A DNA stretch of 22,179 nt, taken from positions 1 to 22,179 of the IMG/VR virus record IMGVR_UViG_3300047362_000894; one strand, given 5' to 3'. The DNA comes from a virus. The notes beneath the pieces are model-generated. The model searched no databases and was not told the DNA's origin. It saw only the letters and a program-made list of their open reading frames with translations. Numbering within the stretch: position 1 is the first letter of the stretch; each line of letters starts with the position of its first letter. This document shows, in pieces, positions 935-15,396 of this stretch. Position numbers and translations under genes: made by a program.

Positions 935-1336
935 CTATCGACACAAGTATTTATCATTCCTAATATGATTAATAAAAAAACGTATGTGATCAAAGTGTTT
1001 TGCTAAGGTTTCAAATAATTCTATGTTTAAAGCAGTTGTACATCTGTTGTAACTAATTTTGCCAATACTTGAGTAATATTTTACATCTATTCCGTATTCA
1101 GGAAATAATCCCGTAACGAACAAGCATGTGTCGCCTAGTGTTTTTGCATCTCTAGAGTGTTTTATTTCTAACATAGATTCAGCAAAAGTTTTTGTAGGTA
1201 GGAAATCAGATTTGTCAACATGAGAAGCAAGCAACAAAACAACATAGTGTTCGATGTACTCTGGCATTTCAATGCCGGTTCTATCACGTGTATCTTTTAC
1301 AACGTCATAGAAAGCTGAGGCGTACTCGTCTCTCAT
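935..1336 (-). CDS. Conserved uncharacterised protein
   Basis: 133 residues. Visible landmarks are a hydrophobic helix around residues 27-40, the block LGDTCLFVTGLFPE at 67-80, and YYSSIGKISYN at 87-97. I recognise this arrangement (LGD..LF..G.FPE followed by YY...G...Y) from small bacterial proteins of unknown function, so a cellular origin is possible. No catalytic motif, signal peptide or membrane segment is clear. The start at 1336 has no good ribosome site and lies only 15 bases beyond the terminator of the upstream ncRNA; a later ATG at residue 24 is possible but would cut into the conserved region. A CTAAATA sequence lies immediately upstream of the start. Confidence 0.6.
   Translation of the reverse strand: MRDEYASAFYDVVKDTRDRTGIEMPEYIEHYVVLLLASHVDKSDFLPTKTFAESMLEIKHSRDAKTLGDTCLFVTGLFPEYGIDVKYYSSIGKISYNRCTTALNIELFETLAKHFDHIRFFINHIRNDKYLCR
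948..955 (-). promoter_or_regulatory. Candidate late promoter (GATAAATA)
   Basis: On the minus strand the sequence reads GATAAATA, one base off the T4 late octamer TATAAATA and matching the NATAAATA form described for T4-like cyanophages. It would start transcription about 85 bases before the 390-854 gene. The leader would contain two small hairpins (GCTGT/ACAGC and CCGC/GCGG). Confidence 0.45.
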
Positions 1337-1341
1337 ACTAA

Positions 1342-1348
1342 TATTTAG
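1342..1348 (-). promoter_or_regulatory. Weak late-promoter-like CTAAATA
   Basis: CTAAATA on the minus strand, 6 bases before the ATG of the 935-1336 gene. If used, transcription would start almost at the ATG, giving a leaderless or near-leaderless message. It may be chance in AT-rich DNA. Confidence 0.2.
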
Positions 1349-1353
1349 TCAAG

Positions 1354-1378
1354 AAAAAAGACACCGAAGTGCCTTTTT
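1354..1378 (-). terminator. Intrinsic terminator of the ncRNA
   Basis: On the minus strand a 10-bp stem (AAAAAGGCAC with GTGTCTTTTT) closes on a UUCG tetraloop and runs into six T residues. The single wobble pair (G1372 with U1361) is G-U on the minus strand but would be a C-A mismatch on the plus strand, so the minus strand is the intended one. It ends the transcript starting near 1598 and isolates the gene at 935-1336 from it. Confidence 0.85.
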
Positions 1379-1598
1379 AATATAAGCAAAATAGGTAGGA
1401 CTTGGGTACACCTACAAGCACGGACCGAAATACCATTTCTAAACCGTACAACCTGTCCCCGCGGGTTAGTGCGATGTGACTCAGCGTATTTCTACTACCA
1501 AGCCTGGGTACCACCCCTGGACAGTCAAGTTCGACTCTTTTGGTAGGAGCCTCTTCCTTGCACTATAAACAAAAATTAATTACTTTTTTGTTGCTTAT
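1354..1598 (-). ncRNA. Structured noncoding RNA of unknown class, with own promoter and terminator
   Basis: A minus-strand transcript of about 245 nt is bounded by a sigma70-type promoter (1605-1633) and a UUCG terminator. It is clearly less AT-rich than the surrounding spacers and has no reading frame with a ribosome site. The ends pair: ATAAGCAA (1598-1591) with TTGCTTAT (1389-1382), 8 perfect bp. Inside, TAGTGC (1565-1560) pairs with GCACTA (1472-1467), and this encloses CTACCAA (1546-1540) paired with TTGGTAG (1501-1495). A 3' hairpin has ACGG/CCGT (1447-1444 with 1423-1420) around GAAAT-GGT-ATTTC. GGAC/GTCC (1458-1455 with 1401-1398) would form the base of that domain. This is a closed multi-branch fold, typical of a stable functional RNA. 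It lacks tRNA, tmRNA and RNase P signatures that I can recognise, and is not the single irregular rod of 6S RNA. The exact fold is inferred by eye. Confidence 0.7.
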
Positions 1599-1604
1599 GT
1601 ACTT

Positions 1605-1633
1605 AATATAACAGACTTTATATATAAAGTCAA
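1605..1633 (-). promoter_or_regulatory. sigma70-type promoter for the ncRNA
   Basis: Minus strand: -35 TTGACT at 1633-1628, 17-base spacer, -10 TATATT at 1610-1605, giving a start near 1598. That start coincides with the first base of the RNA's closing stem. The -35 context GTTGACTTTAT is shared with the gp55 promoter of this window. Confidence 0.75.
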
Positions 1634-1805: not shown

Positions 1806-1881
1806 GACACTCTCCTCGTTAAAGTTAAGTGCGTTCCTTCGCTAATGCTACTTCCGGGCTAATTGCCTGAACGTTGTATTA

Positions 1882-14459: not shown

Positions 14460-14660
14460 TTATTTTTTTGCCTCTGTTTTGGTTTTGAACTTCTCGTGTA
14501 TCTCATCGCCTCTAATTTTGCTTAGTCTACGTATTTCTCTGAGCCATTTTCTGCTTGCTCGGTGTGTTCTAAAGCTCAGCCTTTTTTCAAAGTTTTCGTT
14601 TGCTTTGAAATATTCTAAATAGGCTTTTACTAATTGATCATGTATGTCATCATCAATCAT
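14460..14660 (-). CDS. Small basic conserved phage protein (66 aa)
   Basis: 66 residues, helical and basic: an N-terminal acidic tip (MIDDDIHDQL), then VKAYLEYFKANENFEKR, and a Lys/Arg-rich half with RASRKWLREIRRLSKIRGDEI. Proteins with this layout (helix with EYF..NE.FE, then A.R.WL.EI..L.K.RR.EI) recur in T4-like phages without a known function; a DNA- or RNA-binding role is a guess from charge. The start overlaps the hemC stop by eight bases, so it is translated by coupling within the gp47-gp46-hemC operon. Confidence 0.65.
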   Translation of the reverse strand: MIDDDIHDQLVKAYLEYFKANENFEKRLSFRTHRASRKWLREIRRLSKIRGDEIHEKFKTKTEAKK

Positions 14661-15396
14661 AGTACATTGCCTTTAGTGTAATCGGATTAGTACCAGTAGC
14701 ATGAGCTGCTAACTTTGTATGACAGTCGCCGCCAATGCCTTTTAAAAATGCACGTTCAACTTGTGCTTGTGCAAATGTAGTTGCATGATTAACTTTCTTA
14801 ACAACGTCTATAACTTCTTGATTGTCTTTTCTAGTTTGTAATGCAATAATACCTTGACCAACAGCTGGTATAGTAGGTACTCGCAACCAAGTACGTCGAA
14901 TGTCTAATGCTTGTAAACCTGCTTCGGCTAAAATTATTGCATCATAATCTTTGTTATCAAGTTTTTCAAGTCTGGTATCAATATTACCACGTATGGGTTT
15001 AATTTTTATATCTAAGTTTTTATACAACTCTTTTAGTTGTGCAATACGCCTTGGACTACTAGTACCAATTGTACATCCATATCCTACACTTCCAATTAAG
15101 ACATCATGTGGACTATTGCGTTTTAGCATTGCTGTAATAGACAAGTCTGGATGTTCTTCGCCTGGCATGTCTTTCAAACTGTGTACAGCAACATCAATGT
15201 CGCCTTCTAGTAGTTTTGTTTCTATTGTGCTACAAAAAACACCCTTGCCACCAATTTCATAAATTGGTACATCAGGATTTAAATCTCCGTCAGTTTTAAT
15301 AGTTATAATTTCGGTATCACAAGAAAGTTCTTTGCAGGCTCTTTCAGCATATGCAAGTGCTAGTTTACTTCCTCGTACTCCAATTTTTAGTTTCAT
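14653..15396 (-). CDS. hemC: Porphobilinogen deaminase (hydroxymethylbilane synthase), short form
   Basis: HemC joins four porphobilinogen units into hydroxymethylbilane, the linear precursor of haem and other tetrapyrroles. All catalytic landmarks are present: VRGSKLAL (7-14), IGGKGVF (48-54), AVHSLKDMP with Asp76 (70-78), GTSSPRR with Arg116/117 (111-117), RGNIDTRL (136-143), PAVGQGI (177-183) and the cofactor-binding Cys225 in GGDCHTKLAAHA. The protein has 247 residues against about 310 in bacteria: domain 3 stops about 22 residues after the cofactor Cys. The ATG overlaps the gp46 stop (ATGA) and the next gene overlaps its end, so it is firmly inside the recombination operon. It has the AT-rich codon use of its neighbours. 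The missing C-terminus suggests a minimal phage form; activity is untested. Confidence 0.92.
   Translation of the reverse strand: MKLKIGVRGSKLALAYAERACKELSCDTEIITIKTDGDLNPDVPIYEIGGKGVFCSTIETKLLEGDIDVAVHSLKDMPGEEHPDLSITAMLKRNSPHDVLIGSVGYGCTIGTSSPRRIAQLKELYKNLDIKIKPIRGNIDTRLEKLDNKDYDAIILAEAGLQALDIRRTWLRVPTIPAVGQGIIALQTRKDNQEVIDVVKKVNHATTFAQAQVERAFLKGIGGDCHTKLAAHATGTNPITLKAMYYD

Follow-up and report, generated by a model that had tools for sequence, protein, structure and literature searches.

A divergent manA-family RNA as a probable independent gene in a marine T4-like phage contig

The window (the whole 22,179-nt stretch of IMG/VR virus record IMGVR_UViG_3300047362_000894 analyzed here) carries on its minus strand a structured RNA which, judged by covariance-model match and comparative evidence, is a divergent member of the manA family (RF01745). 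We consider it probable that this RNA is encoded as an independent phage gene, likely expressed early, most likely acting in trans, and held as an optional cassette. In the order of transcription, the features of the locus are:

1605..1633, minus strand: sigma-70-type promoter (−35 TTGACT at 1633–1628, 17-nt spacer, extended −10 TATATT at 1610–1605)
1591..1598, minus strand: 5′ arm of the outer stem P0, AUAAGCAA, beginning at the predicted transcription start (covariation and pairing probability)
1385..1590, minus strand: manA RNA, RF01745 (covariance-model match and structure covariation)
1506..1517, minus strand: hairpin with a GGU loop (1512–1510), 5′ side of the pseudoknot (loop-pair complementarity)
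1464..1466, minus strand: ACC, loop triplet of the hairpin that follows and 3′ partner in the pseudoknot (loop-pair complementarity)
1382..1389, minus strand: 3′ arm of P0, UUGCUUAU (covariation and pairing probability)
1354..1378, minus strand: intrinsic terminator with a UUCG loop, AAAAAGGCAC-UUCG-GUGUCUUUUUU, −9.9 kcal/mol
1339..1348, minus strand: late promoter (T4-type) from which the next gene would be read, CTAAATATTA, 3′ of the terminator and kept in relatives that lack manA
935..1336, minus strand: next gene, a 133-aa ORF, which manA-less relatives retain together with its late promoter

Family assignment and phage distribution

The first-pass annotation had placed the RNA in no recognised class, and the Rfam check which it had itself named as able to overturn this view found a known class when run on the interval. 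In E-value mode, cmscan returned a full-length match to RF01745 (model positions 1–192 of 192; 50.2 bits, E 3.5e-12). A default Rfam scan at the gathering threshold gave nothing in the interval 1354–1633, because this score lies 5 bits below the RF01745 gathering score of 55.2 bits. Two same-locus relatives (L090, 57.5 bits; L091, 61.9 bits) and the copy in Pelagibacter phage Mosig (64 bits) exceed this curated cut-off; as the window-type sequences show, other family members fall short of it. Models of tRNA, tmRNA, 6S RNA, and RNase P RNA did not match the 1354–1633 RNA in Rfam scans. The wcaG (RF01761) and PhotoRC-II (RF01717) RNAs are likewise orphan structured RNAs of T4-like cyanophages, but they represent different families, and neither was matched in the window by the Rfam scan.

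RF01745 was present in 33 of the 100 viral and phage records searched, and relatives of manA occur in IMG/VR contigs and in the Kyanoviridae. The cyanophages P-HM1, P-SSM4, P-SSM2, P-RSM4, S-SSM5, and S-SSM7 carry copies scoring 124–186 bits, the first five of them 169–186 bits as opposed to 50.2 bits in the window. A gp23-like capsid protein and a late sigma factor encoded in the window fit the marine T4-like phage setting of manA, which the window RNA shares with RF01745 together with the closing stem, multibranch fold, 3′ hairpin, and pseudoknot. It differs from the Rfam family in the additional stem P0, in its own terminator and in the separate promoter of the gene that follows, and is thus not a plain 5′-UTR element. 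The one isolate relative found by blastn was Mosig EXVC030M (MT647606, 108164–108371, unannotated), with 74.9% identity over 225 nt to the window RNA. The two have the same kind of promoter (in Mosig TTGACA-17-TATATT), and P0 is present in Mosig as AAUGC/GCAUU; unlike the window, Mosig lacks a terminator, and a rubrerythrin gene lies 23 nt 3′ of manA. With Mosig manA as the query, blastn retrieved no cyanophage copy, and sequence similarity alone therefore cannot link the manA subtypes. Mosig also encodes a tmRNA (L003, 1587–1925), for which the permuted tmRNA model was the best fit (93.6 bits). A bacterial origin of manA was rejected: one pattern, covering the cyanophage-type core only, had two matches among 85,000 bacterial and archaeal genomes, each on a contig that carries phage genes.

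Covariation of the core fold, outer stem, and pseudoknot

Folding energy alone is weak evidence for the structure (z −2.3 with the terminator, −1.1 without it); comparative evidence was therefore needed, and covariation carries the structural case. The Rfam structure from the cmscan alignment was projected onto 62 window-type relatives (alignment A1), and is independent of any fitting to these test sequences. Standard pairs filled 81.3% of the cells, compared to 65.2% in shuffled and at most 54% in slid versions, and 573 cells were changed on both sides versus 197 in shuffles, counts which, like those for P0, include two chance pattern matches (L243 and L246) that should weaken them and derive from related sequences, so that changes do not equal independent events. 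On each of the five measures, the observed value was out of reach of all 500 shuffles and of every slid version. That TAGTGCAAGGAA is invariant in this alignment is an effect of the search pattern, an artefact that was left out of the evidence. The inner stems that the first-pass annotation had seen nested within the RNA are thus real and constitute the manA fold.

The outer stem P0, which is absent from the Rfam model, is a perfect 8-bp helix whose first base lies 7 nt 3′ of the −10 box, and the predicted ensemble assigns pairing probabilities of 0.85–1.0 to its first six pairs. The pairing of the two RNA ends from the predicted start onward had been noticed before; its coordinates hold, and the stem covaries across relatives (97 double changes versus 51 in shuffles; score 0.388 versus 0.178, reached in 0 of 500 shuffles), with variants such as AUAAGC/GCUUAU, AUAAUGC/GCAUUAU, AUAGUA/UACUAU, and AUAUGC/GCAUAU. 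The pseudoknot was drawn with a question mark when manA RNA was described (Weinberg et al., 2010; PMC2864571). Among window-type sequences, again related to one another, 16 of 23 distinct loop pairs are strictly complementary, where 5.0 are expected and none of 2000 shuffles reaches 16; the triplets are GGU/ACC, UGU/ACA, AGU/ACU, UGC/GCA, and UAU/AUA. Rfam's corrected manA alignment has 48 significant pairs (PMC7779021) and may already hold part of this support. A covariation analysis of homologous loci, as a check of the kind that had been proposed for this RNA, found compensatory change in all three features, core fold, P0, and pseudoknot.

As had been stated, no long reading frame crosses the RNA, the only one being a GTG frame of 45 codons. 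Hypothetical proteins are annotated over manA on the same strand in P-HM1 (112705–112881), P-SSM4 (164884–165057), S-SSM5 (116417–116623), and S-SSM7 (151441–151572); these are probably not genes.

Promoter, terminator, and optional cassette

The promoter reported by the first-pass annotation was recovered on the minus strand. It matches 10 of 12 consensus positions and has the extended TG, but 0.8 such promoters are expected by chance in 400 bp, so that the single site alone is near chance. More elements were collected with two DNA patterns that lie inside the RNA, without selection on the flanks, which yielded 96 distinct window-type and 99 cyanophage-type elements among the matches listed, including a few chance matches. 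A promoter just 5′ of manA (TTGACA-(16–18)-TATAAT with at most two mismatches) accompanies 80 of the 96 and 97 of the 99, in total 177 of 195 among the matches listed, compared to about 2–4% of random positions in the same contigs; these assignments, like those of terminators, are pattern-based. Early promoters of T4-like phages are of the sigma-70 type, and late ones are (N)ATAAATA-like motifs. The manA promoter would be read by host RNA polymerase carrying sigma-70, and expression is therefore probably early.

A perfect 18-bp inverted repeat, GACTTTATATATAAAGTC (1614–1631, minus strand), covers the −35 box and spacer of the promoter. Compensatory variants (GACTTCTGAATAGAAGTC, GACTTTAGGAATAAAGTC) occur in the nearest relatives only, and the repeat is a possible operator. 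In several cyanophages (L141, L143, L144, L145) a terminator-like hairpin 5′ of manA includes the TTGACA −35 box, so that terminator and promoter overlap; such a hairpin stands after the preceding gene, which is gp23 in P-HM1, P-RSM4, and S-SSM5.

The UUCG-loop terminator described earlier was likewise found at 1378–1354, and its stem is compensated in relatives (GACGC/GCGUC, GACUC/GAGUC, GGCAC/GUGUC). The G–U pair that had been taken as strand evidence favors the minus strand. One pattern-based scan did not call this terminator, probably because the A/T part of its stem runs into the T tract. Across phages, the 3′ flanks of 87 window-type and 94 cyanophage-type elements with a recognised 3′ end were classified. 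Among the matches listed, window-type elements are followed by a terminator in 45 of 87 cases (39 of them also with a late-promoter motif), by a late promoter alone in 26, by a tRNA in 2 and by none of these in 14; for the cyanophage type the figures are 40 of 94 (terminator), 11 (tRNA), 10 (late promoter), and 33 (none). The next gene is thus cut off in 73/87 and 61/94 of the elements among the matches listed, while random positions have terminators in 7% and late motifs in 6%. Many cyanophage copies (L290, L292, L300, L313, L318, L324) have just 3′ of manA a large-loop terminator-like element, AGACCTAAGATGCAACTC...GTGGGGCAGATGGTCTTTTTTT, which gave no Rfam match in scans of L313, L294, and L326.

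The 133-aa ORF, whose product has no family match, has relatives in 26 contigs, and their comparison suggests that manA is optional at this locus. The RNA precedes the ORF in 14 of the 26, and eight others (L095, L097–L099, L101–L104) retain the ORF and lack the cassette. In these eight, the ORF comes 70–71 nt after the major capsid gene and has the same kind of terminator and the same late promoter, TTTTTTTGACTAAATATTAGTATG; with the cassette, the distance between capsid gene and ORF is 732 nt in L090 and 1028 nt in the window. The downstream gene is therefore independent of manA. The missing block comprises a glutamine riboswitch, a 50-codon ORF, and manA, and in L090 a T-tract/late-promoter sequence ending in TTGACTAAATA stands on both sides of it, a repeat which would allow gain or loss of the block by recombination.

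The glutamine riboswitch (RF01739, 45.5 bits; 1828–1875, minus strand) lies within an element at 1653–1875, 5′ of the 50-codon ORF; one study of pelagimyophages reported no riboswitches in them (PMC7029224). The basic ORF itself, MNHKDFEIARKK...LSRPRAEKNILSTDPRLQKI, is conserved in L086, L090, L100, and L149 and has no Pfam or PHROG match. It might encode a small inactivating factor of glutamine synthetase. An S-adenosylmethionine decarboxylase gene (PF02675; 1882–2253, minus strand), which has its own sigma-70-like promoter, stands in the window between this cassette and the major capsid gene; the decarboxylase gene is missing at the same place in L090. Further elements on the minus strand are a freshwater-2 RNA (RF02980, 66 bits; 852–934) directly 5′ of a 154-aa ORF (390–854), recurring in L084, L086, L088, L090, L091, L101, L104, and L149, and a phage-encoded porphobilinogen deaminase HemC (PF01379, E 1.9e-62; 14653–15396) with a shortened C-terminal domain and no PHROG family match.

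Candidate functions of the manA RNA

Altogether, the sequence evidence supports the earlier proposal that a self-contained, structured RNA is transcribed by itself, from a host-type promoter to a terminator of its own. A transcript of about 220 nt would begin at P0, form the closed, multibranched, and pseudoknotted manA fold and stop at its terminator, the next gene being read from its own late promoter with no need of manA. The free RNA would most likely act in trans by binding a protein, a ribonucleoprotein, or the translation machinery, and would move between phages as an optional cassette.

Two specific trans-acting roles appear unlikely to a similar degree. The first is that of a translation-machinery RNA, tRNA-like or associated with the ribosome or with tRNA processing, and freed together with tRNAs in some phages. 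Its basis are copies next to tRNA genes: in S-SSM7, tRNA-Gly begins at the base directly after the manA end, and a tRNA begins shortly 3′ of 13 of the 181 elements among the matches listed. In the T4-like phage S-CREM1, manA is of the same Rfam family as the window RNA, but stands inside a tRNA cluster between tRNA-Leu and tRNA-Asn with spacers of 0–1 nt and without its own promoter directly 5′; the authors who placed it there nevertheless labeled it cis-regulatory (PMC9964418). However, most copies lie away from tRNAs, there is no CCA end or match to a tRNA or tmRNA model, and tRNA arrays may be mere insertion spots in these phages. In the second role, proposed by the first-pass annotation, manA would be a decoy or sponge whose target is a host factor that binds RNA or acts in transcription. 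The host-type promoter and the closed, stable fold would suit such an RNA, but none of the known host RNA classes matched it in the Rfam scan.

Less likely still is a cis-acting riboswitch or leader, in which binding of a metabolite by the manA fold would decide whether transcription continues past the terminator into the next gene, or whether that gene is translated. This function was proposed in the original description, where manA was filed as cis-regulatory on the ground of its location in possible 5′ UTRs (PMC2864571), and the Rfam type entry is "Cis-reg". The 5′ edge of manA at the promoter agrees with it, as do the short distances to the Mosig rubrerythrin gene and to purL in P-SSM2, which begins 16 nt 3′ of manA. 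Sugar-related neighbors also recur 3′ of manA, namely transaldolase (talC), phosphomannomutase-like (PMM-like), and mannose-6-phosphate isomerase (ManA) domain genes. Yet the first downstream ORFs belong to at least 48 families, which include, besides gp32, heat-shock, redox, and structural-type genes; among the matches listed are gp32 (38, both types), an E1_FCCH-domain protein (19), transaldolase (11), phosphomannomutase-like proteins (5), Hsp20 (5), ManA-domain proteins (5), peroxiredoxin, and others. Copies inside tRNA clusters speak against this function as well. A leader would be a 5′ UTR with no independent promoter between it and its gene, whereas in the window a terminator and a late-promoter motif intervene, and that gene persists with its promoter in the eight manA-less relatives. 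An attenuator at the window locus was rejected on these grounds and because the terminator bases neither pair with manA nor have an antiterminator in the predicted ensemble, although a tertiary switch is possible. Since 33/94 cyanophage-type and 14/87 window-type elements among the matches listed have no separator, with gp32 or talC often a few tens of nt 3′ of manA, part of the copies must serve as mRNA leaders too, and one transcript may have both roles where no terminator intervenes. A chance fold without function, with which the unremarkable folding energy of the RNA without its terminator would agree, is refuted by the covariation in three separate structural features and by the presence of the element in well over 100 contigs.

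While the family itself was already known, our analysis appears, within the searchable open-access literature, to be new in three respects: the sub-threshold window-type members with P0, the covariation of the formerly uncertain pseudoknot, to which these sequences contribute as they do for P0, and systematic evidence for manA as, in most cases, a transcription unit by itself. It is conceivable, at slightly less than even confidence, that the manA family as a whole consists of stand-alone, early, trans-acting phage RNAs that are exchanged as cassettes and have a conserved host component as their target. For more than 15 years manA has been filed as a riboswitch candidate, a label that steers work toward ligands of the neighboring genes. 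If manA is an independent RNA gene, the useful work would instead be transcript mapping, deletion with rescue from elsewhere, and pull-down.
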